NCBI GenBank assembly: GCA_022925895.1
Contig: JAKSYS010000262.1
Span: 1 to 64,000, forward strand
Source of the DNA: Fragilaria crotonensis
Taxonomy: Eukaryota; Bacillariophyta; Fragilariophyceae; Fragilariales; Fragilariaceae
Direction of reading: 5' to 3'
DNA length: 64,000 nt
The notes under the pieces are model-generated. The model saw nothing but the letters and a program-made list of their open reading frames with translations, was not told the DNA's origin and did not search any database. A program made the translations under genes and the position numbers. This document shows positions 793 through 31,897 of this stretch, piece by piece. Each line of letters begins with the position of its first letter. The first letter of the stretch is position 1.

Positions 793-816
793 CATCAGAA
801 GGTGGCGGGTTTTACA
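793..816 (+). repeat. Left terminal inverted repeat of the Plavaka-like element
   Basis: This 24-bp segment, starting CATCAGAAGGTGG, is the exact reverse complement of 12482-12505. It lies outside the outermost gene of the element. Confidence 0.75.
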
Positions 817-1176
817 TGTAACAAATTTGGTACACTGTACCGTTTTTTTTTAAGTCCAGTACAGTGCGTAATATTTTTTTCCACTGTAATATGAAAAGGT
901 TTATGTAATATCTCTTGTATCTTGAATAATTTTTTTCGAGTCCAGTACAGCTGTGTACCCTCTTATGCTACACCCAGCATCCAATTGTTTCTGTACCTTG
1001 GCTGTTGATGTCATAACATCTAGCTGTGGCTGTAAAACCCCTTTTTGGTCGGGTGTAACATCCATTTACGGTTCCTCCTGTATACAGTATGACAGTAGTT
1101 CAATAGTACAGTGCTCCACTAGTGCAGTTCGCAATACATTCAACGTGTGCTTCTTCCAACCAGTGCTATTTATAAC

Positions 1177-4402: not shown

Positions 4403-4443
4403 TATGTTTACCTGCACTGAACGACATTTTGTCACCAGGGATC

Positions 4444-7400: not shown

Positions 7401-8544
7401 GTTGTTGCCAGAGTTCACGACGCTGAGAACTGGCATTGAGTGGGTTGATGAGGTGGCATGGTATTACATTCAGATGGTCAGGTGCAAGACAAGGTATCCG
7501 CACATCCTCTCGACTCCACCGGCCTTTGACACATGGATTTATGTCAACGACTACGATTGGGCTGAGTTCAAAAAAGCAACCTCTCAGAATGTCATGGTTG
7601 GCGTTTCCGGTGATGGTGAGGCGGATGCACGGATGGTTGCCATCGAATCCCTCACTCCCGGAACTTACCTTGGTGGGAAATGCATCTACTTCCCATCAAT
7701 ACGCCTACGAGAAGTCTTCGCAAGGAAATTTGAACCCTTTCTGCCTGAGGGTGCTCGAACTCATGCTGGCCAAGAGGAAAGTGATGGCTCCCCTTCCCGC
7801 CCTCATGGAATTGACCATCAAAGTATCATGTACTACTTCATGGTCAAGGTGACTGACAGCGATGTTGCCCGTCGCGTGCTTCGGAAGTGCGATGACGATT
7901 CTGATGTGATGATGCGGGAGGCAAAAGGACACCATACCCAGTGGTCTCGCGAAGTAACCAGTGGGGCGCTGACGAGGTATGATGAGGACGACGCCTTCTT
8001 CTGTTATGACCTCAACTCTGAATTGTACGACCGGCGTTTCCGTTGGTATGAACTCAGTAGGTTTGAAGCGGCGAAGGAAGTAGGTCCAACATTCCAATGG
8101 AAATCTCTTCAGAACCTGTCCAAAGCCATGCATCAGATCTTGACTTTGCGAAAGCCCCCCGGTATTCTTGGACTCAATGGGGATAGACATGCAGCTTTGG
8201 CAACCGAAACGCTGATCGATGCCTTATGGGAAATGATGACATTCGGATTGAGGTTTGCGATGGTGTTCGACAGGATGTGTCTTTGTGTGAAAACAGCAAT
8301 TCCGTGCCTGGCTTCTCCACAGGTTGGTGATCTTCTGTCTGCATTCGCATCAATGATCATAACAAGGGTGCCAGAAGTCGTTCCACGGTATGCCTTCGCC
8401 TGCGATGATGCATTCCTACTCGAGTCATTGGCACTGAACATGGTGCGCATTCTTCCCTTCAGCAATAGAGATGCTTTCGGTATCCGGGACACGTTTGCCA
8501 GGATACTGCCAAGACATGGGGTGCGACGCAGGAATGGAAGGTAG
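4444..8544 (+). CDS. Large unknown protein of the Plavaka-like element
   Basis: I do not recognise the family. The first ATG, at 4444, opens a basic, disordered N-terminus (MSPSPSDNKQRGKRSS). A conserved core follows, with YCHRERR, CRHYVAGFLHR and NVDPES, then an acidic middle (about 6600-6900) and a helical C-terminal region to 8544. Two frame changes occur, at TTTT near 5785 and at TTTT near 7393. Correcting one T at each would give about 1366 residues, consistent with indel error rather than decay. A second copy at 62506-64000 aligns along the core and spans the first break without interruption (its ESVLQVRYL matches DSMVQVRHL here), which supports one protein. It converges on the transposase gene, 31 bases apart. 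Its role in transposition is unknown. Confidence 0.65.
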
Positions 8545-8574
8545 TACATTTTATATGTTAGAGGACTACATGTT

Positions 8575-11500
8575 TTACATTCCAAACAAGACTTGTTCTG
8601 ATGTACTATGTACGTTGTCGCTTATCTGTGCTTCCTCGATGTCTGGCAGATCCCGATTCTCCATCTCCAATGGTGGCTGCCTTTCTTCGCTTTCCAACGG
8701 TGGGCTTTCGGACAGCGCTCCTGGAACCCTTACGGCGACTGCGGCGGGAAGCTGGGGATGGGGGGATGATTCTGTCCGGTCTGTGGAAACCTTCATCTCC
8801 ACTTTCGTCAGACTCTGCTTTCTTCTTTGTTATGACAATTTCCTTGTACTTTTGGTGAATGAACAAGTCCCATGTTTTCGACCATTCTGTTTGGGGAAGC
8901 ATCATGAAGATGTACATTGCATTCGGGATGGTCTGACCATCATTTTTGTGGACACAATCACTGAAATTGTCGGCAACTGCGACAGTCGGTCTTTTTATCG
9001 AGTCGACGTGGACAAGATAGAGAATCGGTTGGAGGCTGTTGGGGATCAAATCTAGTTGAAACTTCCGGAATATAGATCGGTCTCCTCTTCATCTGCTTCC
9101 TCCTCGTCATCGCCAATTCCCGGGCTCCTCGTCATCACCATCGTCTTCACTGTCGTCACCATCGGGGAGTACCTCGTTGTATGATTCAATGACAGCATAG
9201 AAACCAGGGTTCGGGACAGAAACCTCTTGGCCAGAATGCGGAAGTCTTATCTTGGAGCCATTCGTTACGTTGCAAAGATTGAGGAATGCATGAATGCGTG
9301 CAGGGAAGAGATCATCGTATCCATGCCATTTAACGAGAGCGTAATCATACCAGGGTTTACCATGGTAACATGGATGAGCACGATAGATCTGACCATCCGC
9401 CGACTTGTACTCTGTATGACAATGAAGAATACGTGGAGTCGTATGGGGAAGTACATGTTTTGCAAGACATGTTGATACGTGAGATGTCAAGTGATAGTCC
9501 TCTGGAGGGATCGTCAGCCTTCTTCTTCTTTGATGCATTACGCTTACAGACGATGACACCGTCAACATCTTCTTCCAAAGAGAATCTCTTGCCCTGGAGC
9601 CGATGAGTGTCAAGCATCATTGTAGGGATTTGCAACATGTCAGTTATACTTGATGCGCACTTCCGGATTGCAAGATTTTCGATGTAACGCATGGCAGCCT
9701 GGAGTGTGAACGTTCCTTGACGCTTCTGGGTATTGCGTGTTGTATCCTTTGAGATGGTTATATGGGCAGACTCCGCATAACTACTGTTCATAACCTCAGG
9801 AACGCCAAAGTTGAGCATGTCTTCATCCATGTGCAAGACGAGATGTGTCTTGATTGTTGTATTTCCCATGGTGCCAGAAAGTCGGGGGGGCAACAAACTT
9901 CAGCGATCGCATTAGGGACGACACTGCAAGCCCAGATCGGGAGACAGATAGACGCGAGATGCGACTTTGCTTAAGCCATGCATGCCACTCGAGCAGGGAA
10001 CTCAGAAACATTTTCCAGTCCTCGACAAAATCAGGGTTGCTGAGGCTCATGTCCACTTCAACTTCTGGCGTGTGAGATGTGGGCTTTGACAACGTCGACT
10101 TCGATGAATGATGCTTCCTTCGCTTCGACATCTTTGATGACTTGAAGATTTCCGAAAAATGAGTAGTATGCAACGAGATGAGCATGATGAATATGCAACC
10201 GGCGTACTCATGTCCGGGGATGTTGGCACCCGATGTAAAACCTTTTGTGACCGTTGTCCTGGGAACAAGTCGATCACTTTGACGACCTACGCGCCGGTTG
10301 ATGTCCAACAGCAGATTATCATACCTCTTGCCGGACTCGGATGCCTTTCCAATTTGCTTGAAGAAGGAATCAAGAACATTCTTGAACCAACCCAGGAGGA
10401 TCAAGTGAAGGATCTCCCCCCTGGACATGCACCAAAAATCCCACGATTGTTGTGCGCACCAAACCTGACCGAATCGAATGCATTGATGAGATACTGTTGT
10501 GAATTGGACTTCAACTCCAAAAACTGTCTGTTGGTGACCATTTGGTTAACTGAATGGGGAGTGCGTTTTGCATATGCCCTGGCCTTTGAATAACCGGATT
10601 TATCGGTCGGACATACACACGAACGACAAAGCTGAGCAACAGTTGAGGTCCGAGATTGGTAATGACCACAAAGAGCATCATGGCCAACCGTATCTCCAAC
10701 TATGAATGGAACATAAAGGTGGAGGTGAACAGGGAAAGACTTTCCACGGTAATGGAGGTTCCATTTCAAACCAGATTCCTGGAGATCGAGATACCCAGAC
10801 TCGCGCAAAATGAAGTCAATTTGAATGTGATACTCATTCAGTCGGTAGCAGGCTTCCGAAACATGGGGAGGACCCACAATGGGGAGTGGTGTATTCGGTC
10901 TGACTTCTCCAGGTTGGAAAGCACGTTCCTTGACTGGAGTTGTATTGATGAAACCCAAAACTCTCATTGCTGCGGGGGTTTTGCGGATGTCGTGCGCCAT
11001 CAGTCCATACGATACGACGATGGGTTCAAGGCTTAGCTTTCCACCACCTCCGATGTCGCAGGTCGTCTTATCAATTGCAAGCACACATGGAAGTAACATA
11101 TCTTCAGCTTTCTTTATCAGCAAGTCATATGTTTTCAGGTAGGACTTGCCTGTGTTTATGTCACCCAAAACCGAACCACATGGTCGCGCAAAAGGGTTAA
11201 CATCCGGATTGTCAGGGTCGTGGAATATATAGTTCTCATCCCGGTTCAGCTCAGCACACGAAAGGAAAGAATTAAAAACAGCATGGGCACTGAAATAAAC
11301 GATATCAACCTGACAGTTTGAGTATGGGAGATAAAGCTGCTTCAACATGGGGGTCAAACCTTCAAAGTCAACACGATTTTGCAACTTGCCCATGACGGTC
11401 TTTCGAGAACAGATGGGGATGTCACGAAAGGAATGTCCTCGAGAGCATGATCTGACGGCCCACTTCATCACCTCATCAAACGCAATCATCGGACATCTCA

Positions 11501-14037: not shown

Positions 14038-15318
14038 ATGACCATTACCCTCAGCACTCTCTCACCCGCTCTCCAAAAGCTTGTTGAAGAAGCCAGAGGG
14101 CTGTATATCCAGAGCTACGGCTCCTCCACTGAGAACTTTTGCACCGTCGCTCCAGGGCGCGTCAATCTGATTGGTGAGCACACCGATTACACAGGTGGAT
14201 TTGTCTTGCCGTTAGCAATCGACTATGGTACTGTCGTCTACGGTAGTGGTGCAATTTTGGAGGATGAATCAACAAGAACAAGTGAGATTGAATTGATTAG
14301 CGGCATGGCTCCTGATAAGGTTGAGAAGTTGACGATTGACGCAGATACAAAACCTCCGTCTGCCGATGAACACAACCATTGGACCAATTACGTGTTGGGT
14401 GTGGTTGCACAGTATCTTCCTGACTTGCCTCAAGGTACCTCGTTTTCCATCAAGATTGCCATCGCTGGCAATGTACCTCTCGGGGGAGGCTTGAGCAGCA
14501 GTGCCTCGCTCGAAGTGGCAACCGCTCGCTTCCTAGAGTGTATCTTGGGCGATTCAGCGTTTTCCAGTTCCACGGACAAGCTCGCCGCAAAGGTTCGAGC
14601 CCTTCGTTGTCAGAAAGCTGAGAACGTATGGTGCCATTCGCCATGCGGGATCATGGATCAATATGTTAGCTCGGCAGCCTCGGAAGGCGCCTTGCTGCTT
14701 ATTGATTGCACCTCCTTTGAATACCAAAAAGTCCATGTCAAGCAGCCGTCGTCTGTCGTTTTGGTGGTGACCAATTCCAACGTCAAGCACGACATTGCGG
14801 GTGGTGAATATCCCGTGCGTGTGGCACAGTGTCGGACGGCAACGGTCGCCCTGCAAAAGTTCAACAAGGGCATATCCACCCTCCGCGATGCGACGTTGCA
14901 GGACGTGCTTGCTGCGGAAGCGGACATGGACGAGATCTCCTTCCGACGTGCGAGACATGTTGTGACGGAAAATGCAAGGACGCTGGCAGCAAAGGATGCC
15001 TTGGAGGATGGAGACTGGGCGCTGCTTGGAAGTCTCATGAATGACTCACACACGAGTATGCGCGATGATTATGAAGTAAGTTGCTCGGAGATAGATGTTC
15101 TTGTGGACTTGGCACAGACGTTCAGTGGTGTATACGGAAGTCGCTTGACTGGAGGCGGCTTCGGAGGGTGCACTGTCACCTTGGTGGAAAAGGAAAGCGC
15201 GCCCGCTTTGATGGAGTATTTGAAGAAGGAGTACAAGGTACAGACTGGCACTGATTGCGACTGTTTTGAGACTAGTCCTGGTCCCGGTGCCAGACTTCTT
15301 GGTACTGATAGTGTCTAA
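14038..15318 (+). CDS. galK: Galactokinase
   Basis: The product phosphorylates alpha-galactose with ATP to galactose-1-phosphate, the first committed step of the Leloir pathway, in the cytosol. The 426-residue frame is intact and near the usual family length. Visible GHMP-kinase signatures are the galactokinase motif GRVNLIGEHTDYTGG (residues 40-54), the ATP loop GGGLSSSAS (149-157) and the C-terminal LTGGGFGG (370-377). The ATG at 14038 gives a normal N-terminus; the frame is open further upstream, but without an ATG. There is no intron. It converges with the ORC6-like gene, 335 bases away. No targeting peptide is evident. The identification is firm; preference among related sugars such as N-acetylgalactosamine is not settled by sequence. 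Confidence 0.93.
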   Translation: MTITLSTLSPALQKLVEEARGLYIQSYGSSTENFCTVAPGRVNLIGEHTDYTGGFVLPLAIDYGTVVYGSGAILEDESTRTSEIELISGMAPDKVEKLTIDADTKPPSADEHNHWTNYVLGVVAQYLPDLPQGTSFSIKIAIAGNVPLGGGLSSSASLEVATARFLECILGDSAFSSSTDKLAAKVRALRCQKAENVWCHSPCGIMDQYVSSAASEGALLLIDCTSFEYQKVHVKQPSSVVLVVTNSNVKHDIAGGEYPVRVAQCRTATVALQKFNKGISTLRDATLQDVLAAEADMDEISFRRARHVVTENARTLAAKDALEDGDWALLGSLMNDSHTSMRDDYEVSCSEIDVLVDLAQTFSGVYGSRLTGGGFGGCTVTLVEKESAPALMEYLKKEYKVQTGTDCDCFETSPGPGARLLGTDSV

Positions 15319-15653
15319 AACGATAGTAGTAAGTCGATAGCTAGAGGCCTCTACGTTTGCAAAATTCGCTGTAAGCTTCAAATCTCGATTCGCTGAGGAA
15401 ATTGAGTGCTCCCCACTCTACACTGGCCACGACAACCAGCCCTGATTCAGATGGGGTTGGACGGCAGAAGATGCACGTGCGTCACCGTCGCTCACATGAT
15501 TAGGCCTTCGGAGTTTGGCTTGATTCCAATGAAACGAATCGAAATTCCTGAAGCGAAAAAAAGGGAACGCATTTGTAAGGAAGTTGTGGACAATCCTTTC
15601 CTCGACGACGACCAAGACAGGCGGCATCCGAAGGTTCGGTAACCCGCCACTTC
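15319..15653. other. 3' spacer between convergent genes
   Basis: This lies between the stop codons of galactokinase and the ORC6-like gene. Weak open frames exist on both strands but start only at GTG or TTG and match nothing I know. I treat the segment as shared 3' untranslated DNA. Confidence 0.5.
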
Positions 15654-16733
15654 TCAAGACACGGCCCTCCCAAATCGGCGCAAAACGGCATCGGCTGCCT
15701 TTTGCAGCGCTTGTGAGTCTGACAAGTCGCCCTCCTTATCTCGCGCTTGGCTTATAGCAGTTGCAAGAGTTTGCGACCTCCATGAACTGAAAGCGTCGCT
15801 ATAGGTGTAAGTGGCAAGTGATGCATGCCCGGTGGCGCCGGCGACTGACGAGACACCATTTTCCATGGATTCTGCCAATTCCGTCAGGTCAGCCGCAATT
15901 ATGTTTTGACTAGACGAACTCGGCTGCCTCTTTAGCCGTTTTGTTGACCCGACCATCTCTGGTAGCAATCTTCTCTTTTTAAGTCTCACAATCTCATAAA
16001 ACTTCTTGGCTTCCTTGTATATATCTTCGAATTCTTGTGACTGGACGTTTGCTACCTCCATCAGCATGGGCTTCAATTGATCCATGTGTTTAACTTGATT
16101 CTCCTCCATTACTAAACAGAAACATGCAGATTCGTACCCTGGCTTCTTACGCTCCATGTCTTGTAGAAACCCGGATCGTTTAAATTTGTCTTTTAATCCC
16201 CAAACATGCAGCTGTATGTCCTTTATCAAATGCTGTGTAAGCTTCGCGAAACCGAAACTGTCTGGAATATGAGACCCTAATTTGATAGAGAGAATGGGGA
16301 TGATGCTGCTGTTGTCCTTCCCGAAGGGTCTCTGCGGCTTGAGGGCGCGTAAATTTGAATCGAGAAGGCGCGCGCCCACCTCGAGATTGCGGCGCATGCT
16401 GTCTGTTCTGTCGTGGGTACTATCCATGTAGTTACCAATTTTTGCCGACATGGACTCAAAATCTTTCTTCTTCATCGTACATATCTTGCTCAGATTTGAT
16501 TTGATCGCTATGCCATTCCGACGAAGGATCAAATCAAGCACAATAGCAGCTCGATTCTCGACACTGTCGCCCTTTCCAAGTCCTCCCACCTTGATCTTGA
16601 TGGCAACCTTACGCAGCGTCTCTTCGGACGTGATTATGATATCTTTGGTAACCACGGTTCGATCATCGGAAGATATCTTCTCTACTATATTTTCTACAAC
16701 AGAAGTCGCGGGGCGAGGCGGCGGTGGTGCCAT
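15654..16733 (-). CDS. ORC6-like protein (origin recognition complex subunit 6)
   Basis: An intact 359-residue frame starts at the ATG at 16733 (MAPPPPRPATS); the frame is open 22 codons further but that start is less natural. Two helical regions resemble the cyclin/TFIIB-like repeats of ORC6. The first (about residues 15-130) includes ENRAAIVLDLILRRNGIAI and TMKKKDFESMSAKIGNYM. The second (about 165-265) includes GFAKLTQHLIKDIQ and ACFCLVMEENQVKHMDQLKP. The C-terminal third is low complexity, with a basic KKRRLL and a RLKRQPSSSSQ stretch, plausible as a nuclear signal. ORC6 helps load the MCM helicase at replication origins. ORC6 sequences are poorly conserved, so this call rests on pattern and could be wrong. 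The alternative is an unrelated lineage-specific nuclear protein. Confidence 0.45.
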   Translation of the reverse strand: MAPPPPRPATSVVENIVEKISSDDRTVVTKDIIITSEETLRKVAIKIKVGGLGKGDSVENRAAIVLDLILRRNGIAIKSNLSKICTMKKKDFESMSAKIGNYMDSTHDRTDSMRRNLEVGARLLDSNLRALKPQRPFGKDNSSIIPILSIKLGSHIPDSFGFAKLTQHLIKDIQLHVWGLKDKFKRSGFLQDMERKKPGYESACFCLVMEENQVKHMDQLKPMLMEVANVQSQEFEDIYKEAKKFYEIVRLKKRRLLPEMVGSTKRLKRQPSSSSQNIIAADLTELAESMENGVSSVAGATGHASLATYTYSDAFSSWRSQTLATAISQARDKEGDLSDSQALQKAADAVLRRFGRAVS

Positions 16734-17176
16734 TGCGATCACTGAACAAAGGGAGCTGGGTGAGATTTTTGTCACATGTGCCGCCTTCAATTGTCGCATC
16801 TGCGAGTACTGTACAATTTACGTTGCGACATACTGGTAGATCACTTTACATGTATGTGTACCGGTACTATCGGTAGTCTCTGCGAAATACTCCCAGTACA
16901 CAGTACAGTACAGAATATGTATATACATGTATGTATAGCAGCACATGTAGAAATGACTCAGGACACTGGTATTGTACCGGCTACGTGTAGACCCTTGTGA
17001 TTACGGTATGTTGTAGGGAGTACTGGAATACTATACTTGGCGTACTACAAGTACCAAATCAAATGTGTCCGAAGCTGTTTTGGCCGTTGCTCCGCCGCCA
17101 TCGGGAAAACTGTTAGATTCAAACGACGAAACCGATCCTCATTCTTTTCCAACACGACCTCAAAGGATTTCGCGCC
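16734..17176. promoter_or_regulatory. Divergent promoter region, ORC6-like and kinesin genes
   Basis: The two genes diverge from this 443-base spacer, whose middle (16800-17060) is dense in GTAC and TACCGG palindromes. Both products act in the chromosome cycle, so shared cell-cycle control is an appealing inference. No specific factor site can be named. Confidence 0.4.
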
Positions 17177-20100
17177 ATGACGAAGACGACAACGGCGTCT
17201 TCAAGCACAACTCAAGTCCGCGTCGCGGTCCGAGTGCGACCCTTGACAACTAAGGAGCGAGATTGCAAGGCCGTAGTAGATGTTCGCCCTCCGGCATCCG
17301 TAGGAATCGCGGCACGCACTTTCACTTACGATTTAGTGTTTGATGCAAGAGTGCCACAAGCTGCGCTGTATGATAAGGTGTCTCCCAATTTGCTCTCTTC
17401 ATTTCTGGAAGGATATAATGCAACTATTATGGCATATGGACAGACCGGATCAGGAAAGACGTTTACCATGGGGAGTGAGGTTCACAGCGCGGACGGTGAA
17501 GCTGGTTTGATTCCCCGATTCATGACTTCCATCTTTGAATCGTTGGCGGAAAAGAAAGAAGCGCTTGTAGACTTTACTGTTCAAGCTAGTTTTTTGGAAG
17601 TCTACGGAGAGGATGTGCATGATTTACTTGATCAAGACCGAAAGACGCTTCCGTTACGAGACGATGCGAATGGTGGAGTTGTTGTAGCCGGTTTGACATA
17701 CCGAGCCATTTCGTCGGCAGACGAAGCTCTTGACGTATTGAATCAAGGAACATTAAACCGCACTACCGCTGCGACCTTAATGAATCTCACCAGCAGTCGC
17801 TCTCATGCAGTGTTTACGATATACTTATCACAGACAACTCGTGCAGACAACATTGATGTCACCACAACATCTAAGTTTACGTTAGTGGATCTAGCGGGAA
17901 GCGAGCGCATGAAAAAGACTGGAGCAGTCGGCGAGAGAGCTCTTGAAGGAATAAAGATCAATGAGGGGTCTCCTAGCACTTGGGAATGTTATCAATGCCC
18001 TGGCAGATGAAGAACGTATCTCCAAGGAGAGGAAGATCCATGTGCCCTATCGTCAGTCAAAGTTGACACGACTCTTACAAGATGCTCTTGGCGGAAATTC
18101 TCAGACTCTATTTATTGCTTGTGTCTCGTCTGCTGACATCAATGTCAGTGAAACTCTATCGACGCTGCACTACGCAAACCGGGCTCGCAACATCAAGAAT
18201 GCCCTGACAAAAAATGTCGACGGAGCTGCCTTGGAACTACAACGTTTGCAGGCTCTCAATGCCTTGTACTGCAAAGAATTAGTGCGACACAAATTCGATA
18301 CTGATGATATGGAGAGCCCTGAGGTCAGGGAATATTTTGAAGCTTTGCATGATGCGGCTGCTATTGATGACGCCGCTTTCCCCGTTCTGCGGCCCCCAAT
18401 GGCGGCACTACCAATCGATAAGCAGGGATTCGGAGAGTCCTCATTTGGCCCTGCATTCTCCGGCGCCACCACAGCAGTCGCTGCAACGCCGTCGAGAACG
18501 AATGCTAGTTTCATCGATGACATCTTGGATGAGTCAATCTTGGAGGAGGTCAACCCAGCAGAAGAACTTGCAATTCCTAGATCAGTTGCTCGAGCTCCAA
18601 AACCAGGACCACGAATTCAGCAAGAAGCACCGACAGAGCCAAGTCGAACTGAAACAAGTTCAGGGAGAGTTAGACGAACAGGAAGCCCTTTTGTTGCAAC
18701 TACGGGACAGTCTCAAAGTCTATCACAACATGAAGGAGAAGTATCAAATGCTGATGGCAGAGGTGCAGCAACTCGAGGTGGAAAAACTGTCGCTTGCTGA
18801 TCAGCTTGAGAAAGTATCGGTGGATCCAACCAAGGGCTGTTCACTGGCTATCAAGAAGAAGTTGGAGCGTGTCGAAGCCAGTCTCGTGCGTGCCAGAAGC
18901 GATACTCGCAAGCACCAGCAGAAGTATCGCGAAGCTGAACAACAGGCCCAAAAATGCAAAGCCCTGGAACGCAAGATTTCTCAGTTGAAAAAAGATAAGA
19001 TTTCCATGATCAAGAAGCAGAAAGAGGACACAATTCGTCATCGCGAGTTTACTGAGCAAAAAACCCGAGAATTGCTTGTTCTGAAAAGAAAAGAACGCAC
19101 AGCCGGAATGAAAGTAACCAAGTTGCAAACGCAGATCCAGAACCATAGAAACGACCTTGCGAAACGCAAGCTGTACGCCGAAAAAGTGACGAACAAATTG
19201 AAGGAGACGGAAGCTCACTTGATGAAACTCTTGTCTATGCGCAGTCGAGAATTACAAAATCGCCATGCGTCTCCTGGGCGTCGCAAGTCCATCCGTGTCC
19301 CACTTCTCAATGATGGATTTGCCACGAATTCACAGGAATTGGAGTCTATGATGTTTCTCTTGAATCGTTTGGTTGTTGATCGAGTTACGCTCGAACAGAC
19401 GAGAGTCCAGTATGAAGATCGTGTTGCTGAGTACAGTGAAATTATGCGAAAGATCAGGGAAGAAGTCAAGGTTCTAGACATAACAAAACAAGGTAGCGAC
19501 GAGGCTGGCGAACAAGAACAGGTTGTTGAGGATCTTGAACTGAAGTTGGAAATTGTCAGTGGGGAAATAGAGATGTTGAATGCCAAGGTTGGGACGACTT
19601 CCATGACCAACGAAGAATCTGACATTGAGATGAAAGCCAAGCAAACAATTGGAACCCTTAGCGCACCTACAGTCCGTTCACTTCTATGGGATTTTGTTGG
19701 AAAGCTAGCTGATTCAGAACTTGAACGTCAAAGTCAATCCTGATCCATGGAAAAGAAGGATCGTGTTATTGAAAGCTTCGAAGCGGAGGTCAGATCCCTG
19801 AATCAACGGGTTGCTCTTCTAACAAGCGACCTTGCTGAACGCCGAAAGCTAGCGGCCGGCGATGACGATCCGTTGGAGTTGATTCGCGACCTCAGGAAAC
19901 AGCTTGAGGCTGCAAACGCGTCGTTGGGAGAATCAAAGGCGCTATCCCAGGAAAAGGAAAAGTTAACGACTGCCCTCAAGAAGGATCTTGCCACTGCTCG
20001 CTTAGAGTTACTTGAAATCAGCGAAAAGCTAGCGTTGTCGGACACAATCGTTCGCCAACGTTTGGATGATAACACGTCGGAGCGCACCTTGGATGTTTTA

Positions 20101-22210
20101 CAAACCCTTTGGAAACGAATTGGTGTCCCAGACGACCAGCGGAATAAGTCTCGACTTGCCATCATGTCTTGTTTGGACGACACGTGTCAACGCCAAGTCC
20201 GCGATGCAAGAAAGCTCAAGCACGATACTGAAATGGAGATCAATAGTCTCCGTGAGAAGCTGCGTATGATGTCGCAGGCTCTCGGAAAGTCCATTGCTTT
20301 GGACGATCCTATCGACCAGTCAACTCTTACGCAAGAACGAGACCAGCTCCAAGGCCAGGTCGATCTTGTAACGCCTGAATATGAGAGTATGCTTGATCGT
20401 AAACATCGAATCATGAAGAGTGTGCGCAGTTTGACGCATGCAATGAACATCTCTTTGGAGGACCTTTCTCCCGACCTGAGAATGCTTCTGAGTGACGGTG
20501 ACAGTGAAGGACAAGTTCCGCGCACAGGCAAGGATATGCGCGCGTCGATGAGAAAGGGAGTTGAAGGCATACTCCAAGCGTTGGAAGAGGGTTATCCCGT
20601 TGACGATCGAATTGTATCAGCAGAAACTATTGCAGCTCCAAGATCGCTCCAATCAGAGTTCCTTGATCGATGCGAGCAAGACTTGACAAGCCTTCGAATG
20701 CAGAAATCGAGAAAGGCGGTGGCGAACTCTGACAAACGGAAGGAGGTCCACTCCCTGGTAATGGAAATGCACGTCACCGAAGGTGATATCAATAGCCTTA
20801 TCTCGACTTCGACTGTTCATCCTATCCCGAGCTGGTGGGAGAAAGATGTAGCCGCACACGTTGTTGACGTTATTGTGAAAGAAGATGACATGGTCGACGT
20901 GTCCCCGATGTTCACACAGCACCTCGACCATATCTGTGCAGTTCTAACGCTAGTGTCGGAACAACGAAAGAAATTATCAACTGCGCTGAAGGACGCTATC
21001 GATCGAGCTCAGAGGACGCTGTTGTCCACAGTTGGCGAAGAGGTGGATGCAAGCGAAGCGTATGCTAGCTTTCACGAAGCCTTGTTCAATCTTCCAACCC
21101 TTTCGAAGGAACATATACAAACGTGTATCGAGGAAATCAATGCACTTACGGCCGGAGTCGAAGTCATGACACAAAGCGAAATCGAGGCCCTTACAGTTGT
21201 GTGGGAAGCCCTTCACATCACGACGAAAGAAAAAGGAAATTTTTGGGGCGACATCGAGGATTTTTCCAAGGTTGCTGGATCCAAGGAAAAATCAATGTTC
21301 GAATCAATCCAGTCTTCGTCAGAAGAATGGGTTTCGGAGGCCGTGAAAGAAGCATCAACTGCCTACCAATTACTAAGCACTCGCCTTCACAAGCTCGAGC
21401 AGATACACCTTGAGGTCGAGAAACTTCGTTCAAAACAGGATGCCAAAAGTCTGATCATTTCACTTGACTCTGAAATAAGGATCTTGACCTCAAGTCTTGC
21501 TGAATTTGAGGACAAGAAGTGCCACAAGCAGCGACTTTTGACAAAGAAAGCCGGAAGCTCAACTCTCTTGCGAGAGGAACGCTTTCGGAAACAAATGCAA
21601 GGAAAGTTTGCGACTAAGTTACATCAACTCAAAGCTGCAGTAAAGTCTTGGAAAGAAAGCGATGGCGATGATTTTGAAGACGACGTGCTAAGCGAAGAAG
21701 TTCGCATGCTCCTTGACAACCCTGACAAAATGGATACGCTAGTGAAAAAGCGCACAGGCTTCATGCACCTTCGCACAGTTCAGACAAAAGTGCCATTGGG
21801 AAAAAGGGCAGCCCTACATTTGACACCAGTGTCAGAGTCTCCTGTTGTGAAGAAACAACGATCAAGCGAGAATTCGTCGGAAGGGTCGACGGGTAGTGTT
21901 GGGTAACAATAGCGTTCATGGATCGAGAACGGTTCCAACTCGAGAGGCGCTCAATTCCAGCAGACCAGGGGTCGAGAATCGACCACCATCCGCATCGAGC
22001 TCCTCCAACTCCAGGAAACGAAAGCCAGAGACCACGCAGACACGAAGCCCAACTAAAATGAGATCGAGAGGCCGAAATGGAACTTCGAATAGCCCACTCG
22101 CGTCGCAAGGTGGGACTGCATCCATTAAGCGAAAGAAAACGGACCTGCACATTGCAAAACGAGGCTCTATGATGCCCTTTGGAAACGTTCTCGGAGGCGA
22201 CGACTTCTGA
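17177..22210 (+). CDS. Kinesin-4 motor joined to a PRC1/Ase1/MAP65 module
   Basis: The start is the ATG at 17177. The N-terminal motor has RVAVRVRPL, the P-loop GQTGSGKT (residues 88-95), SSRSH and LVDLAGSER, then [12 protein letters not shown] across a break. A coiled coil follows whose basic stretches ([24 protein letters not shown]) resemble kinesin-4/KIF4. After a single in-frame TGA at 19741-19743 the same frame continues at 19744 with more coil, then [20 protein letters not shown] and later [24 protein letters not shown], the first and last conserved blocks of PRC1/Ase1/MAP65. The tail (21904-22210) is basic (RKRKPE, IKRKKTD), likely nuclear. Kinesin-4 and PRC1 are known partners on antiparallel microtubules of the anaphase midzone. 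One-base expansions shift the frame at GGGG 17965-17968, CCC 18554-18556 and GGG 21901-21903. Two adjacent genes remain an alternative, but ATG follows TGA by three bases, leaving no promoter. Confidence 0.75.
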
Positions 22211-22270
22211 TGGAAACAGCACGATTCCATAGGCATAAATGCGCATACCACTGTATAACAAAAGTAGCAT

Positions 22271-23742
22271 CTATTGATTCAATGGTTTTAACCAAACTAT
22301 CACAACACAAATGTTGTCTCCACTTCCTCGATTCAAAGCCTCAGAAGCAATATAACGTGACATGTTCTTTCGTCTCACATCCTGCATTCTTCGCGCAATC
22401 TTGTATCCTTCGCTGCCGGGCTCGAGGGACCCACTCGGCTTGACGGCCTCCATTTTCCGATGAACGAATTGCACAACTTGCTCCGAGGTCATGACATCCC
22501 ACACACCATCAGATGCAAGAACAATGAACTCATCATCCTCCCTTAGCGGGAAAAGTTGAATTTCTGCCTCGCCGCTAACAGTGGGTTTCGCAAAACGATC
22601 GCCAATGGCTCGCGACAAGGATAAATTCTTGACTCGGTGAATCTTGCCATAATTATCCCACTCGATTTGCTCACCCATGTTCTCGATCCTCGCCCGCTCC
22701 CGTTCATCACCGGGTTTGTGATCTCGAGTCATATCTACCGCCATTCCACGACGACACAGCACTGCCCGACTATCGCCAACATTCGCCGACACCAGAGTTT
22801 TCGATCCATCTTCCCCTTCATGAATGGCTACCGCCACAGCCGTGGATCCCTGATATTGCATCGCATCCTTGCCCAGCACTTCCGCATCGATCGACAGAAA
22901 CGCCGCACGCAGCGCCATGACGAGCGAGTGGAGAGAGGAATGTTCCATTTCCCACGACGTGCGTTTCCACTCGCGCTGAAAGCGTTGGTACAAGTGATGG
23001 CGCAAGTGTCGTGACACGTCGCTCCCACCGTGTCCATCAAAGACTCCCACAAACTTTCCGCCGTTTCCGATGAAGTAATCATCTTCCATGTAAAGACGGC
23101 CGCCTTGAATGGCGCGGACAGAAACCTATGGGATAGGAAAGAGACAAGGCGTAGCGTGAGCAAGGAGCAGTGCTCGCGTGAAAGAGAGAATAAACAAAAC
23201 GCGGAAGGACACGAGTTCAACAAGACATTAGGACTTACATCAAACGAGGTGCCGCCTTCACTGTTTGTTGCAACCGTAGGTTCTTCCTCATCGTCGTGCT
23301 CCTGAGCACGCTTGGACCCCAACAACAGAGTTTTTCCCTGAAAAGGGGGCAAGGAGCTCCCACCACCTCCACCTCCCCACGAAGCGAATCCAAACTCTGA
23401 GGATGGCGTTGGTCCACCCATGCTACTGGTTGTGTAGCAAATGGCCGCACCACTGACAAAGGCTGCCACAACGGAAGATACGAGGAGTTCCCATGATGAC
23501 CACCATAGCGAAGTGTCGGTTTCGTGGAGTGTTGACGATGCGCAGCGTAGTACACCGTTCGACGGAAGTGCGACGGATTGATTGGGAATAGAATCCTGTA
23601 GTGCTGCAAATGAAGGAAGCGACAAAATGCTGTAACTTCTTGTTGCTCGAACAGAATCATCCAAAGTTGCGTATGATCTCTTTGCTAGGATGGCAACCAA
23701 TCGAGATGAGGATGTCACGGACAGGCTTTGTGCTATCATCAT
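22271..23742 (-). CDS. PP2C-type protein phosphatase, membrane-anchored
   Basis: Two exons, 23742-23239 and 23125-22271, are separated by a 113-base GT..AG intron in phase 0; they join as FD|VSVRAIQGG and give 452 residues. The C-terminal domain has the metal-dependent PP2C motifs RLYMEDDYF, VFDGHGG, GSTAVAVAI, NVGDSRAVL, DHKP, ASDGVWDVM and GSGDNICVV, so it should remove phosphate from Ser/Thr with Mn or Mg. The N-terminus (MMIAQSLSVTSSSRLVAILAKRSYATL) looks like a mitochondrial presequence. A hydrophobic segment at residues 84-104 is probably a membrane anchor, followed by a Gly-rich linker. A mitochondrial inner-membrane phosphatase is inferred; a plastid or ER site is possible. It converges with the kinesin gene, 60 bases apart. 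Frame and splice signals are clean. Confidence 0.88.
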
Positions 23743-26302
23743 GCTGAATTAGCAGGATATCGTTCCAGGTTCCTTGATCCAAGTAGCCGCTGCTGATAGA
23801 CTGGTAACTGGTAGTACGATGTTCGAATACAAGATTGATCTCAACAGGACGGCGATAGACGTCAAGACTCAAATAACTGTGAAAGCTCAAAGATCGAGGA
23901 AGAATTAATGATGTCAATGGAGCACTCCTAGTCTCACACGCTCACTCTCGCGTTGATCAGCTACACCAATACGAGTTGCACAAGAGTTCTTTGTTATGGC
24001 AGGTCGGAAATGCGAGATACGATATGCGATCACCAAAGATGAGATGTTCAACTATCCTGCAGTATTCTGACTTGTGACGCTCGGTGTACGTTGCTAAGAA
24101 CTTAAGAATATGCATGTGCAGTACACAGAACACACAAACAACCAGAACTTGAGATTTGAGATCCTCCGGAACACCCGCGTCAAAGGCTGGATCGTTTTAA
24201 AGCTTTCTCACGAACTCTGGCCTCTGACACGCTTCTGGAGGTTAGCGGTAAGCCCCACTCAGAATTGATGGAACTTGGAGTACCTGGTACCACGATGACA
24301 TCAGGATGACGTCCTTGTGTTTCGCAGTGACAGCTATCGAGAAAACTCTTCGTATGACATTTCATAGGTCCACTCTATCACTATATATGCGTACACTACT
24401 ACTTGTAGAAGAATTCGGTCTTCTACAGTAGTATGATATATGCATCAGGGATTGGAAGTAAATAACCACCGGTACCGGTAACCAAATACCGACGGTATTA
24501 TACTGTACCACTACTGTGATTTTTAAAATGCCCAATAACTGGTTACCTGCAAGTTGCAATATACCAATCAGTAACCAGGACCCATGGTTATTTTCTACTG
24601 AGTTTAGTCGGTAGTCGGTAGTATTTTGAATTCCGGTGTTCGGGAATACCAGCCTGAATTTCTATAAATGTTCTGTCCTGCATCAGTGTGTATACGGTTC
24701 ATTTCTGTACTGTAGTACTGCAGTTTACTGTTACTGTAGTGTTTTTACTACCATTATACCTACCGGACGAAACCAATGGAACTGAGAAAGTACTGCGCTT
24801 CCAAAAATGAAGAGAAGTTATATTTATACCGGACTGAAGGATTTTTCAATACCAAAATACCTCCCAGTGCAACAGCACAATACCATTCTACCTACCGGAG
24901 GACTGTAATACCAGATTCAACGTGGGACAGTATTATTTTTCCAATCCCTGATATGCATACTGAAATTGAGTGGAGGTGTCAATACTACGACAAGTACCGG
25001 TACATGAAGCATATATTCCAGAGTTCAGGGATAAAGATGTACAGTACAGTAGATGTATGATGCACTCAACTCCGAGCATGCTTTTAGAGATTTCCAGTAC
25101 CGGTAGCTTTCACTCCGAACTCAGAACCGATTCTGAGTCAAAGCTACAGTACTGTAGCGGTAGAGTAAAAGGATTGTTTACTCAACAGTACTTGCTAATT
25201 GCACTGTACACTATAGAGTAACCGAAATTTGCCGAATTTCGCCTACCTGCCTTAGCTTGCCTATCATCGACGTGTTCCTTTCATCATAATTGAACTCCGC
25301 AAGGACCATCATTTTAGTGCCGCAGCTCCTCAAGACCACACAGTTGCTAGTACAAAAAAGACTTCAATCCTCAGCAGAAGAAATCCATTCATCTGCATAG
25401 AACAAACAGCATGCAACACAATGAGAGGGTCTGAAATGATTGCTGAATCCAACATGGAACAAGGGACATAACTTCAGATTTAAAATTTTGTCCATCTTGC
25501 TGTTGTTAGGATAACAGAGGTGGCTGCATGCAAGGTTTGGCTCCTGCAAAAGGTAGGTTTCTTTACGGTCAACGAATTGCATTTGTGATGAGACTCGAGT
25601 TTTGCTGCCAAGACTTGAACAAATCAGGAACCAACCTCAACATTGACATCTCAACAATGGTAAAACTTCAAACTAGTTCTTGAGTTCAAGACTTTGTCAA
25701 ATTCATATAAGTGGTTACAATGATATAAACAAGATGTGCTGGCTGTGCAAAGTTTGGTTGCACAAGATGAGAGTCTTCACTGTCAAAGAAATCAAGTATT
25801 TCTGACAAGACTTTATCAAATTAGAAACCAGCATCAACATTGATATCTCAACAAAGCAATACATAAGACTATTAGACAACTTTGCCAGAGAATACTTGTT
25901 GGTTACGTCCTCAACAAGCCATATGCGAAGCATGGTTCTTGTAAATACTTCCGTAGACACTTCAGTACTGGGGCATCTAGGGCATAGCCCGTTTCCACCA
26001 CGAGCTCCTGGTTCCTAACTCAAACCCTGTCACAACGTCACGACATACGTGGTATATACTTGTAGAACATGAATGTCATACTCCCGAACCCGTGCGTGGC
26101 AGGAGGGCAACTGGATCCAACAAGACAACAGGACACAGCCCAAACCGCATCATTTCAGTCACATCCACGTATCGATAGTAATCATATCCACATATCTACG
26201 ACTACTACACAGCGAAACAGGGTTAACTGCACAGCTGCAAAGCCACTGTTTTTGCTTTGATTGTACCGACGACTTGCATCTGAAAACAAACGAACGCGCA
26301 CC
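23743..26302. other. 2.5 kb intergenic region
   Basis: No gene is supported. From about 24260 to 25220 the DNA is rich in GTAC, ACCGGT and TACTGTA motifs. From about 25360 to 25960 it changes character: two stretches near 25522-25660 and 25740-25855 are a diverged direct duplication (shared pieces include AACATTGA and ATCTCAACAA), possibly an old repeat remnant. The final 300 bases should contain the metacaspase promoter. Confidence 0.5.
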
Positions 26303-27558
26303 ATGGCCTCCAGTTTCGACGCTCAAGTTGAAAAGAGCATCCCAGCCGAGATCCATATGATCTCGGGATCTCATGATTCTCAAAGTAAGTACAAGTACTG
26401 TAGTACTTTACCTACCGGAAACTACGTGTACCCCTGGTAGTTGTAGGAACCGATGAATGATGAGCGAATCAGCTTTTTACGTCCCACGTCAATTGCTTCA
26501 CCAAGATTCTCCATGGTCGTCGTTGGAGTATCGCATATTCTTGGTTTTGATGGCATGGCACGCAGAAGCATCACAAACTAACACGCGCTGCCCTCTTCAT
26601 CTCGTGTGAATCGAATCACAGCCAGTGCCGACGTGAGCAACGTATCCCAATTTCAACTCCCCGACCCTGCTGGCCGTGCAGGTGGCGCTTGTACGTCTGC
26701 AATTTTGCAGGTTTTGTATAAGGACAAGCATCAACAGGCTGAGAGTTTGACGTGGGTCGAGCTCTTGCGTCGGATGCGTTCCGTCTTGCTCAATATGGGA
26801 TTTGATCAAGTTCCCCAGTTGACGTCCTCCCGATTGATTGATGTACACAAGCCCATGTACATTGTTCCACCCGGATCGAACGGTACGAGGCGAGCGATTC
26901 TTATCGGCATTAACTACAAAGGACAGCAGGGACAGTTGAGTGGATGTCACAATGATGCGTCCAACATTGGAGAGTTTCTCGAGAGGGTGCACGGATTTTC
27001 GCGATCCAACATGCTCATCCTTATGGATGATGGTAAGAATCATTCTCCTACGAAGGACAACATCATCAATGCCTTTAAACGGATTGCAGACTACAGCAAA
27101 GCCGGAGATGTCGTATTTCTTCATTATTCTGGTGAGTGCCCTTCTATCAAGTAATGTGAGGATCAATTCCAACTAAGCACAATGACAAGTTTCTAACACA
27201 TGCATCATTCCATGGCTCTTTTCTCTCGAAATGGGTAGGCCACGGCAGTCGTGTTCGAGATCAAGATGGCGACGAAGACGACGGGTATGACGAAACATTG
27301 GTTCCCGTCGATTTCCAGCGCAGCGGCCAGATTCGCGACGATGACATTTTCAAGATTCTCGTCCAACCCCTTCGTGCAGGCGTCACCATGACCTGTTTGA
27401 TGGATTGTTGCCATTCCGGCACTGTCTTGGATTTGCCATATCGCTTTACTGCCGATGGCGATGTCATGCAGCGCAATGACAGGTTTCAACTCTTCGACAG
27501 CCCTGAGGGTGCCATTGCTGCTGCCTGTTGTCTTTGCACTGTTGTCTTGCATACTTGA
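26303..27558 (+). CDS. Type III metacaspase
   Basis: Three exons, 26303-26384, 26622-27131 and 27239-27558, use GT..AG introns of 237 and 107 bases and give 303 residues with an exact reading frame. The exon junctions create DSQTSADVSN and HYSGHGSR. The p10-like block with DSQTSADVSN and [12 protein letters not shown] comes first (residues 20-60). The p20 block follows, with the catalytic histidine in SGHG (H199) and cysteine in DCCHSG (C255). This p10-before-p20 order defines type III metacaspases of algae with secondary plastids, which are Ca-dependent Arg/Lys-specific cysteine proteases linked to stress and cell-death responses. An acidic loop ([12 protein letters not shown]) lies between the catalytic residues. 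The EME1-like gene ends 78 bases downstream on the other strand. Confidence 0.88.
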
Positions 27559-27635
27559 CGCGTAAAGTGATGGTGAGCAGTTTAAGTAGTGCCGAGATTA
27601 ACTGATTGTAGGTTTACCGCGAATTTCACCTTGCC

Positions 27636-29067
27636 CTACAACAACAGTTCATTCCGATTGTCGCATGTCATTGTCCTGTATATCTGTTCCGACAATTTCT
27701 TGCGGTGCCCTCGTTCACCAAACAAGTGTGCCACCATATGTTCCTTAGGGGAGTCGTCGTCTTCCCCCAGGACAGCTCCAGGTGCCGTCGCACCTACAGG
27801 CTTCTGATAGGCCTGCCAGAGCGATCTAGCCGTCGGATAGTACTGTGCCAGTTGTTCAGCACGAGCGGCACTCATTCGTGGAATTTGTTGCAACATGCGT
27901 ATCCATGCATCCTGAGCACGAGCTAGGGGAGGCGCCGTGGCAGGTAGGGCGCATTTTAGTTTCCGGACACAGTCCAATTCCGTCACCTGTTGGGCATAGG
28001 GTTGTTCGGAAATGGCACGAGCCAGATCACGCAGGAATTCAATCAATTGGTTTTCGGATTTCAGGATTTGGCATTCGACGCAGAAGGCCACTTGCAGCCA
28101 AACAAGTGTCGTTGATGTCGCCTTCAGTGACCAAATGCCACCGTTGGGCCTGGGATGCAGCGTTCCAGTGACGACGAATCGTATCAATGATGCCAGGCAA
28201 CAGAACAATTTTCGTTTCTTGGAAGCCTTCCAATTGTTTCCATGAGGCGTAAATCTCCTCCAACCATTCTTCGAGTCGTGGGTAGTCATCTTCTAATTCC
28301 GATCGTTCTAACAATCTCAGAAAGTCATCTGGATCCGAGAATACAATCAGAAGACGGTCGACAAGTTGATAGCCATCGGCATTGACATCCTGAAACGCCC
28401 GGATTGCGGCCTTGGCACCGCCTGCAAGATAATCTCGGCGGAGAAAATGAATGGCTCTCTTGTCAACTCCTTCTGTTTCCATCACATGAGGACGCGTTTG
28501 GATCAGTGTGGTCCACGCCTCTTCAGACCAGCTTTGTCTCAATGCTGGGTGCAGGAGGAGTCCAACTTCTTCCTTGGCAAACTTGCCAGAGATCTGTTGT
28601 GCCGCCAATTTTCGATTCAGCTTGTCCTCTTTAAGAGAAATTCGCTGCGATTCGCGTTCTTGTCGCTCATTTTCTCTGAGCACTTCCTTTTCTCTCTTTC
28701 GCCGTTGCAATTCGAGCTCCTTGAGACGTCGACGCTCTGCGGTGGCAAGCTGGCGTTCGAGTGCCTTGTCCGGTGATTTGTGTGCTTTCGGACGCAGGCG
28801 TTTTGCAGCCAACGACTCGACGTGAGTAGTACTGTCGTCATCGTCAGAAGAAGGAGAGTCGATCCGCGCGACTCTTGGTCGTCGTTTGGCAACAGTTGGT
28901 TTTGAAAAGATGGACTCGGTCGGAATGTCAAAATCTGAATCATCCGAGGAGGATTTCACGGATAATGCAGCACTGGCCTTCGACTTCTTTTTCGCTGGCA
29001 ACACCACCAAACTATCATCAGAGGACGATGAATCGGAGGAAGAAAGGAGGCTAATGGGGTCTGTCAT
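27636..29067 (-). CDS. EME1/MMS4-like partner of the MUS81 junction endonuclease
   Basis: The ATG at 29067 opens an acidic, Ser-rich N-terminus, then a long charged coil (ALERQLATAERRRLKELELQ). An ERCC4-like region follows, including GIIDTIRRHWNAASQAQRWHLVTEGD and, after a break, WLQVAFCVECQILKSENQLIEFL. The end has a helix-hairpin-helix-type segment LQQIPRMSAARAEQLAQYYPT. No ERKxxxD nuclease motif is seen, as expected for the non-catalytic partner. With MUS81 it cleaves branched DNA in recombination and fork repair. The frame shifts at AAA 28100-28102 (plus strand), one base longer than the conserved reading needs; the first frame otherwise ends at 28039. Expected length is about 476 residues. 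The assignment rests on domain order; a diverged MUS81/XPF relative is the alternative. Confidence 0.65.
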
Positions 29068-29412
29068 TGGTCATTCCGTCATTTCCGAATGGATTTCTGG
29101 TTACGTTTCGCTTTTTCATGTGTAATGAAATCGTGCCATGTGAAAAGTTTCCAAAATTCAAATCTGGAATTTGTCCGAGGAGTACACGCGACAAGTACAA
29201 GTACCGGAATCTATGCAGTACGACGTAGGAGAGTAATCCATGATACTGTACTATGGAATACTCCTGCTACTGGAGTACTACTAGCACATAAATTAAAGTC
29301 TACCGTACTCGCAGTACTGTACCTGGTAATCAATGAATGTGCACTTTTGTCGTGTACTACAGTATAGTAGAACCCAAGGTAATACGTGCTACTCGGAGCA
29401 GGGATGCGCACA
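29068..29412. other. GTAC-rich upstream spacer of the EME1-like gene
   Basis: This is 345 bases rich in GTAC, TACTGTAC and ACTCC motifs, without any supportable coding frame. It holds the EME1-like promoter and ends at the large foldback repeat. Confidence 0.4.
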
Positions 29413-31018
29413 ATAATATCCTACTATATTATAAATTAATTGTGTGCGTGCGTGAGTCCGTGTGTTACGGAGTATGACCACTCTGGGGTACTGGATGAAA
29501 TGCATACAGTGGTCTCATACTCGGAGTATATGTCATACGTCATACATGCATACTGTACTAAAACTCGGAGTATGAATATATGTCATACATGCATACTGGA
29601 GTACTCCGTAAGTACGTTGTTGCGTCACCAGTGCGTGCGTCTTTTACGGAGTATGACCACTCTGGGGTACTGCACTACTTGCGTATAGTACTGAACTGTA
29701 CAAACAGTAACTACGGAGCTTCGCCAGGGTTGAGTACTGAAAGTAAACAGTAACAGTAAAAGTAGTGGTACGGAGTACGACCAGGTTGGGGGTACTGTAC
29801 GTCCAGTTTCCTGTAGTAGACACTCCGATCAAATGTGAGGTACCCACTAGTTGTCAATATATTGCAATACACGTTTCTTGCAATACAATATATTGCAATA
29901 CTCGTTTATGCCAATACAATATATTGGTATTGTGATTCGAACCAATACAATATATTGTATTGTCAGGACAAACCAATACAATATATTGTATTGTCAGGAC
30001 GAAGCAATACAATATATTGTTAACAATATATTGCAATACAATATATATTGTGCACATCACGGTGCACATCCCTTGTGATCCTGAGATACAGTTGTATTAG
30101 TACAGTGCTGTACTTCGAGTACACCAGTAACACCAAACAGTCGCTGCTTTTGCACGTATCCGTCAGTATCATCCTACTTACAATATATTGTACAATATAT
30201 TGCAATACTTGTCAACGACAATACAATATATTGGTATTGTAAGATGAACCAATACAATATATTGTATTGTCAGGTCGGACCAATACAATATATTGTATTA
30301 TCAGATCGAACCAATACAATATATTGTATTGCCAGATCGAACCAATACAATATATTGTTAACAATATATTGCAATATATCCTACTATATTATAAATTAAT
30401 TGTGTGTGTGTGCGTGCGTCTGCCTGTTATGGAGTATGACCACTCTGGGTACTGGACCGAATACTGTCTGAATTTTTGGAGCTGCCAGGTTGGAGTACCG
30501 AAAGTAAACAGTAAAGTGCGCAGGGTACGGAGCACCACCAGGCGGGGAAGAACAGACGTTCATTTTGTAGGATGACTCTGATCGAATAGGAAATTCCACT
30601 AGTTATAATACAACTAGTGGGTACTGGGCTACTTGACCTGGAGTGTCTACTACAGGAAACTGGATGTACAGTACCCACAACCTGGTCGTACTCCGTACCA
30701 CTACTTTTACTGTTACTGTTTACTTTCAGTACTCAACCCTGGCGAAGCTCCGTAGTCTTTCTGTTTGTACAGTTCAGTACTATACGCAAGTAGTGCAGTA
30801 CCCCAGAGTGGTCATACTCCGTAACAGACGCACGCACTGATATCCATGTATTCATATGACATATACTCCGAGTATGAGACCACTGTACTGCGCATTGCGC
30901 ACAGTGAAAAAATTCTGACAGTATTCATTTGATCCAGTACCCCAGAGTGGTCATACTCCGTAACAGACGGACGCACGCACACAATTAATTTATAATATAG
31001 TAGGATATATTGTTGCGC
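29413..31018. repeat. 1.6 kb foldback element with three related arms
   Basis: The left arm (about 29413-29862) is matched in inverted orientation by the right arm (about 30604-31018). Shared blocks include TATTATAAATTAATTGTG, TATGACCACTCTGGGGTACT, GCTTCGCCAGGGTTGAGTAC and TTTCCTGTAGTAGACACTCC. A third, shorter copy in the left-arm orientation lies at about 30370-30600. No protein is encoded. Foldback DNA transposons and MITEs have such structure; no clear target duplication was found. Confidence 0.8.
29855..30400. repeat. AT-rich hairpin array (AATACAATATATTGTATT)
   Basis: Two clusters (about 29860-30045 and 30180-30380) consist of many copies of the palindrome CAATACAATATATTGTATTG or shorter forms, separated by 7-10-base linkers such as TCAGGAC. 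They form the centre of the foldback element. Each unit can form a hairpin. Confidence 0.85.
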
Positions 31019-31211
31019 ATCCCTCTCTGAGTACTCCGTTGTACTTGTACCAGTACCAGGTACCGTACAAGAAGAACGTTGATCCGAAGTCGGATTTTCA
31101 TCACACCGAGTTCCCCCCAACAGTCAACGGTAACAGTAGAACAGTGGCAAGTGACCAGTAGGAAATCCCACAGCACAATCAAACTCCGCAGAAGTCACAA
31201 AGAAATCGACG

Positions 31212-31668
31212 ATGCTCTCTAAGGTGCTGTCACCAACGACAGGAAGAATAGCATCGCCATTTGCAAAGTTACTGATTCGTACCATGACCTCGGTAGCAGC
31301 ATCCATCGAATTCAAACTGACCAAAGAGCTTCAACCACTGCACCTAGAAATCCGCAATGAATCCCATATGCACAACGTTCCCAAAAATTCTGAACACATT
31401 TCAAGGTAATTGTCGTTAGCGACCAATTCGCAAACTCCCAACACCCTTGCAGCGACATCGTCGAGTTAATGAAATCTTGAAAGAAGAATTGCAAGGTCCT
31501 GTGCATGCTCTTTCGATTGTGACCAAGACGCCGGAACAGTGGAAAAGCATGCAAGAGAGCGGCGCAGAAATTGGAGCGTCGCCAAAGTGTAGAGGAGGGG
31601 ATGGAAGCTTGCCGCCGAAAGGAGGAGTGGAGTTTAAGATAGTATCAAAGTTGATTACCGTTAGTTAA
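31212..31668 (+). CDS. BolA-like protein
   Basis: The ATG at 31212 gives a basic, hydroxylated N-terminus (MLSKVLSPTTGRIASPFAKL) that may be an organelle presequence. The BolA fold shows as LQPLHLEIRNESHMHNV, then HFKVIVVSDQFANS and RHRRVNEILKEEL..PVHALSIVTKTPEQW. The family works with monothiol glutaredoxins in handling Fe-S clusters in mitochondria, plastids and cytosol. Two one-base contractions in A runs (near 31392 and 31443) break the frame while every conserved residue is kept, so I infer assembly error and an intact gene of roughly 150 residues. It converges with the isocitrate dehydrogenase gene. The C-terminus beyond TPEQW is variable and Gly/Lys-rich. Confidence 0.82.
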
Positions 31669-31897
31669 ATTTTACGTTAAGTATGGCCATGAGGTACGCT
31701 GCTTTCATCGCCATATGTCGTGATGGCTACAACGGCCAAATTGACAATCGTTAGGGATTCAACTAGAACGAGTGCGATAAGGCCAAAGTATTCTTCTCTT
31801 AGTCCATCACCTAGTATCCTATGCAAATCAAAATCAAGTGCACCAAACAAAAATTCAAGTCCAATCTTCGACGTAGGTGTGGAGGAACAACATTCCA

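Follow-up and report, generated by a model that had tools for sequence, protein, structure and literature searches.

A putative kinesin-4 and PRC1/MAP65-type crosslinker fusion gene in the diatom Fragilaria crotonensis

The locus and its parts

The DNA analysed here (the window) comprises the first 64,000 nucleotides of contig JAKSYS010000262.1 in the Fragilaria crotonensis assembly GCA_022925895.1. Its subject is a locus on the + strand at 17177-22210 (5,034 bases), apparently intronless and corresponding to a protein of about 1,680 residues. Judged from its sequence, this gene quite probably encodes a single protein, in which a kinesin-4 motor and a coiled stalk are joined to the N-terminus of a divergent PRC1/Ase1/MAP65-type crosslinker ending in a basic tail, with a suggested role at the spindle midzone. 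As a feature of the DNA, the fusion has a good probability of being genuine. What the assembly shows directly is which parts are present and in what order, that one allele carries a continuous frame through the junction, and that the junction is old.

The window is part of the contig designated C183, and the genome searched amounts to 62.1 Mb in 881 contigs; the silicon transporter family has 19 matches in it, 18 of them above the family cut-off, as befits a diatom. A second copy of the locus is located on contig C466, and decayed fragments of it, described below, occur on C39 and C380. The parts of the gene, in window coordinates, are as follows.

17177-18194, + strand: kinesin-4 type motor domain, beginning with ATG 17177 (PF00225; best solved match KIF4, 3zfc)
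18195-19740, + strand: neck and coiled stalk, with a KIF21A_4th domain (PF25764) at 18595-19095
19741-19743, + strand: junction codon, TGA in C183, CGA (Arg) in C466, CTA in C39 and CCA in C380
19744-20082, + strand: predicted helical coil joining the motor part to the PRC1-like part; coding score continuous, helix in a single-sequence model of low confidence
20083-20439, + strand: first MAP65/PRC1 block, profile positions 2-122, aligned to PRC1 IWELIGIPEDQR
20440-21294, + strand: middle part, mostly helical in a low-confidence model, with no family signal of its own
21295-21675, + strand: last MAP65/PRC1 block, profile positions 319-414, at the position of the spectrin-like microtubule-binding domain
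21676-22210, + strand: basic tail of low complexity, bearing the clusters RKRK and KRKK and a single SPTK site; TAA at 21904 in C183

In the window copy the gene is read in five + strand frame pieces, 17117-18010, 17955-18800, 18283-19743, 19744-21906 and 21851-22210. The best Pfam matches of the first four are, in order, kinesin, kinesin, KIF21A_4th and MAP65_ASE1, and the last piece has none above cut-off.

Motor and stalk

The motor frame starts at ATG 17177, and PF00225 matches the window copy at 17297-17965 and 17928-18194; the unbroken motor frame of C466 scores 337.9 bits with the same profile. Three motor motifs are intact, namely GQTGSGKT (17438-17461), NLTSSRSH (17783-17806) and a third at 17882-17905, which are taken here to be the P-loop, switch I and switch II, respectively. 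Compared with solved sequences, the C466 motor matched KIF4 (3zfc) best, with 280.8 bits, among the best 60 of 154 matches at E ≤ 1e-30, followed by 7x4n, a 'kinesin-like protein' (267.7 bits), OSM-3 (257 bits) and KIF7 (254.8 bits); the kinesin-4 placement is a ranking among solved sequences. The KIF21A_4th domain of the stalk (cut-off 33.1 bits) obtained 45.7 bits in the genome search and 42.2 bits for the frame piece. The C466 copy, in which a frame break splits this domain, reached 21.3 bits, which is under the cut-off. On these profile and ranking matches, the motor is assigned to the kinesin-4 type with a KIF21A-type stalk.

The PRC1/MAP65-like part

A preliminary description of this DNA placed the first and last conserved blocks of PRC1/Ase1/MAP65 downstream of the TGA, with homology setting in about 110 residues beyond it. 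Both statements held: the likeness begins about 113 residues on, at 20083, and the PF03999 profile matches above its cut-off of 26.9 bits, both for 20056-21903 taken alone (33.5 bits, E 2.5e-8) and for the 720-residue frame (27.7 bits). The same protein reversed, used as a control, gave no PF03999 match. Taken separately, the first block (20056-20439) scores 24.6 bits (E 1.3e-5) and the last (21151-21759) 19.1 bits (E 5.9e-4), with 16.6 and 15.1 bits in the genome search. That six-frame search with PF03999 yielded at least four stretches at E ≤ 1 (three candidates scored): a canonical MAP65 on contig C166 with 212.2 bits, the two blocks of the present gene in family order, and one stretch of 14.3 bits.

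In pairwise comparison with human PRC1, the first block aligns over 76 gapless columns that cover PRC1 WELIGIPEDQR, with a score of 78 against a window-shuffle mean of 38.7; this score was matched by 0 of 500 window shuffles and 2 of 500 heptad permutations. Residues 105-672 score 93 against PRC1, equalled by 0 of 200 shuffles and 1 of 200 heptad permutations. The C166 MAP65, which served as the positive control, scores 344 (0/200 and 0/200). Collinearity over the whole length of PRC1, the middle included, was not found, and so this part is termed PRC1-like and divergent.

According to the sections of PMC10620760 covered here, motor docking on PRC1 involves PhiPhi motifs and the PRC1 residues I25, W26, M54, E57 and E58; hydrophobic PhiPhi motifs bind PRC1 with micromolar affinity, and in human PRC1 the loss of the acidic pair and M54 abolishes binding of the kinesin CENP-E. 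At these five positions the fusion has L, W, Q, D and A, and the C166 MAP65 has V, W, K, E and E, so that the stand-alone MAP65 retains the acidic pair and the fusion has lost half of it. Over 18283-21903 the fusion has no FF or YF motif. The altered docking residues would fit what is expected where a covalent link replaces docking in trans.

A number of results weigh against the single-protein reading. The last block alone is weakly similar to PRC1, its score of 64 being equalled by 4 of 500 shuffles and 2 of 500 heptad permutations, and the middle (residues 251-470) gives no signal against PRC1, its score being equalled by 34 of 500 shuffles and 114 of 500 heptad permutations. A phmmer search of the PDB with the 720-residue piece found no PRC1 at E ≤ 10, and likeness to the C166 MAP65 is close to the noise level (BLAST E 0.031; equalled by 3 of 200 shuffles and by 10 of 200 heptad permutations). 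The two pieces of the PRC1-like part in C466, where the frame is broken, have no Pfam match. Two single-sequence AlphaFold models are helical, with a mean predicted local distance difference test score (pLDDT) of 47 and 59, too low for a structural comparison; the second, of 203 residues from the region of the last block, shows three long helices at low confidence, and a Foldseek search with it gave no match at E ≤ 0.001 and no PRC1 in the best 50 of 166 matches. The docking-residue change is that of one sequence, and the position of M54 is altered in the C166 MAP65 as well (K). Finally, neither contig contains a single unbroken frame over the gene.

The weak pairwise scores and the silent middle region are also what would be seen if this were a kinesin-4 whose long coiled tail resembled PRC1 through convergence of coiled coils and not by descent. 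This explanation is considered unlikely, since the profile score lies above the curated cut-off, the two blocks appear in order and the reversed control lacks the family, while a coiled kinesin-4 on contig C146 of the same genome (1,180 residues scanned) has no MAP65 match at E ≤ 1; moreover, the motif LW..IGVP.DQR is unlike a heptad pattern. Taken on its profile matches, the PRC1-like part is a remote, divergent relative of PRC1/Ase1/MAP65.

The tail of the gene is cut by TAA 21904 in C183, and in C466 the frame extends into it. The basic tail of PRC1 is regulated, and the RKRK/KRKK/SPTK tail of the fusion may be comparable; its SPTK site presumably represents a cyclin-dependent kinase (CDK) consensus.

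Reading frames in the two contigs

Collinearity of C183 with C466 extends over window positions 1-9000 (99%), 15021-24445 (99.3%) and most of 24952-34400 (97-98%), and the two are read as alleles. The proposal that motor and crosslinker share one frame was borne out around the TGA, where 19744-21906 continues the same frame, but not over the whole span, because frame changes occur in the window copy near 17965 and 18576 and again beyond 21902, the tail up to 22210 lying in another frame. C466 lacks the first two of these breaks: its 605-residue frame takes in the complete motor and some of the stalk and is unbroken at 17965 and 18576. C466 also runs past the third into the tail, with breaks of its own further on. 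Between the two copies the gene differs by three substitutions and 11 indels, of which 10 break the frame. In the neighbouring PP2C gene the copies differ by one substitution and three indels, two of them not multiples of three. The 107 substitutions counted over 23126-24950 stem at least partly from alignment across 24446-24951, a block missing from C466, and are excluded from this comparison. Because frame-breaking indels far outnumber substitutions, the breaks are read as sequencing or assembly noise and not as decay. The breaks of each contig are thus taken to be assembly noise, and the TGA would be either noise or a fault of one allele.

A decaying pseudogene, in which the stop and the frame breaks are real and the whole protein is no longer made, could be argued for from the breaks in both allele contigs and the decayed duplicate fragments elsewhere in the genome. 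It appears improbable, as the breaks differ between the contigs, the ratio of indels to substitutions over 5 kb follows the pattern of sequencing noise that PP2C shows alike, and the motor motifs are intact. In addition, codon usage is coding-like in all 15 windows tested from 19200 onward, the gene's own frame outscoring the other two forward frames in each (150 bases; starts 19200-20600), with the TGA spanned.

The junction between the motor and PRC1-like parts

The TGA reported between the two halves is present in C183 at 19741-19743 and is not shared by C466, where position 19741 is C instead of T and the codon accordingly reads CGA. On C466 an open frame of 463 residues leads from the stalk through the junction into the PRC1-like part. 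A DNA search recovered three decayed fragments of the gene, at C39:6824-7224, C380:13626-13966 and C803:8947-9042, and a fourth, at C537:91393-91558, that is a copy of the motor start. The C39 fragment corresponds to window 19702-20085 (309 of 402 columns identical) and has CTA as its junction codon; the C380 fragment corresponds to 19702-20049 (261 of 361 columns identical) and has CCA. Either codon would need a single change to become CGA but two to become TGA. The junction lies outside the C803 fragment. Since the C39 and C380 fragments cross the junction without a TGA, the adjacency of the kinesin and the PRC1-like part predates these duplications. Related frames (MEHSG/MENSG...ADDVAKD, with leucine-rich repeats in the one on C380) lie upstream of both fragments, as if frame and fragment had been copied together.

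An assembly chimera was rejected, as both allele contigs and also two diverged fragments have the junction; a shared, real stop was rejected, as C466 reads CGA; and recoding of the TGA was rejected as needless for the same reason. That two adjacent genes are present, a kinesin-4 ending with the TGA at 19743 and a PRC1-like gene starting three bases on at ATG 19747, would suit the TGA of the window contig and the in-frame ATG right behind it, but is very unlikely because a 3' end and a promoter could not fit into three bases, C466 has CGA at this codon, the coding score is unbroken across the TGA, the C39 and C380 fragments have no TGA, and the stretch past it is predicted, at low confidence, to be a helix continuing the stalk. 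The fusion proposed at the outset is therefore supported by the 463-residue frame of C466, the C39 and C380 fragments and the continuous coding score, its PRC1 likeness being remote.

Related proteins in the genome

Both families are also encoded separately in the same genome. The canonical MAP65 on C166 has a frame of 638 residues, and the kinesin-4 on C146, in a frame of 1567 residues, has KIF4 as its best match (314.7 bits) and a KIF21A_4th domain (102.8 bits). The C-terminal part of this separate kinesin-4, at C146:11000-14000, carries a repeated VFERL motif. The presence of a separate MAP65 and a separate kinesin-4 means that the fusion is an addition to them, and it looks like an extra, specialised protein. 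When the genome was searched with the divergent PRC1-like part, the only hits among 12 candidates scored were the gene itself, its allele and the fragments, and no relatives of the fusion were found in viral contigs and prokaryote genome contigs.

Neighbouring features of the window

The fusion gene is positioned tail-to-tail with a PP2C phosphatase at 22271-23125 on the - strand (PF00481, E 2.9e-50), and head-to-head with a possible ORC6 at 15654-16817 on the - strand, the match of which is sub-threshold (14.8 bits, cut-off 27). A segment of about 1.7 kb at about 29395-31060 is present in C183 and not in C466; it has similar copies elsewhere as well as inverted matches and looks like a heterozygous mobile element. 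Another segment, of about 500 bases at 24446-24951, is also missing from C466; with 39 of 484 candidates scored, the part of it that was searched has at least 30 copies, 92-98% identical, and the segment reads as a recently active short mobile element. Positions 1-9000 have 99% copies on C265 and C124 besides C466, the C124 copy beginning from window position 790, and may be a recent mobile element or duplication.

Comparison with known systems

The closest counterpart is the animal Kif4A/Xklp1-PRC1 pair, in which, as in the proposed fusion, the same two families meet by the C-terminal side of the kinesin and the N-terminal side of PRC1 (PMC6200392, PMC10620760, in the sections covered). According to the covered sections of PMC6200392, the C-terminus of Kif4A likely associates with the N-terminus of PRC1, as proposed from in vitro work, and the pair slides antiparallel microtubules until their end-tags collide. 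The two are separate proteins in animals, whereas here they would form a single polypeptide with partly altered docking residues.

Like PRC1/Ase1/MAP65 proteins (PF03999), the fusion has the first and last conserved blocks in order and a basic tail; unlike them, it has an N-terminal kinesin motor and stalk, is strongly divergent and has a middle without signal. With the kinesin-4 proteins KIF4 and KIF21 it shares a motor nearest to KIF4 and the KIF21A_4th stalk domain, but its tail appears to be replaced by, or extended into, a crosslinker. A CENP-E-like kinesin of Tetrahymena with RCC1 is likewise a protist mitotic kinesin fused to another mitotic protein, with a different partner and from a different kinesin class, as described in the covered part of PMC3143110.

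The preliminary description knew of no example of such a fusion, and none was found in the open-access text surveyed; the combination of kinesin-4 and PRC1 in one polypeptide joins known families in a way for which that text gave no prior description. The main text of PMC2867816, which covers 105 kinesin architectures in 45 genomes, does not contain the word MAP65, and its additional files could list such a protein.

Possible role in the diatom spindle

In animals, the tail of kinesin-4 likely docks in trans on the N-terminal dimerisation and rod part of PRC1, and together they slide antiparallel microtubules and set the length of their overlap. By analogy, a covalent link in place of docking would provide each crosslinker with its own plus-end motor at a fixed 1:1 ratio. 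The likeliest workplace of such a protein would be the midzone of the diatom's central spindle, the zone of antiparallel overlap, where it may act as a regulator of overlap length or as a slider in anaphase B. In the sections of PMC5192431 covered here, the sliding kinesin of this spindle is not named, and the midzone matrix is guessed to include Ase1.

A further and more tentative possibility, regarded as doubtful, is that in diatoms the partnership of kinesin-4 and PRC1 became a single molecule serving as the motor-bearing matrix of the paracrystalline central spindle, which would slide or cap antiparallel overlaps. The PRC1 docking site for other motors might then have decayed, since the motor would no longer need to seek it out.

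The diatom central spindle is a classic model of anaphase B. If the gene encodes a single protein of kinesin and Ase1-like parts, it would represent a direct central-spindle candidate, open to tagging and deletion. It would also offer natural Rosetta-stone evidence that the animal kinesin-4/PRC1 contact is basic to function, and would give in vitro studies a version of the PRC1-Kif4A system whose ratio is fixed from the start.

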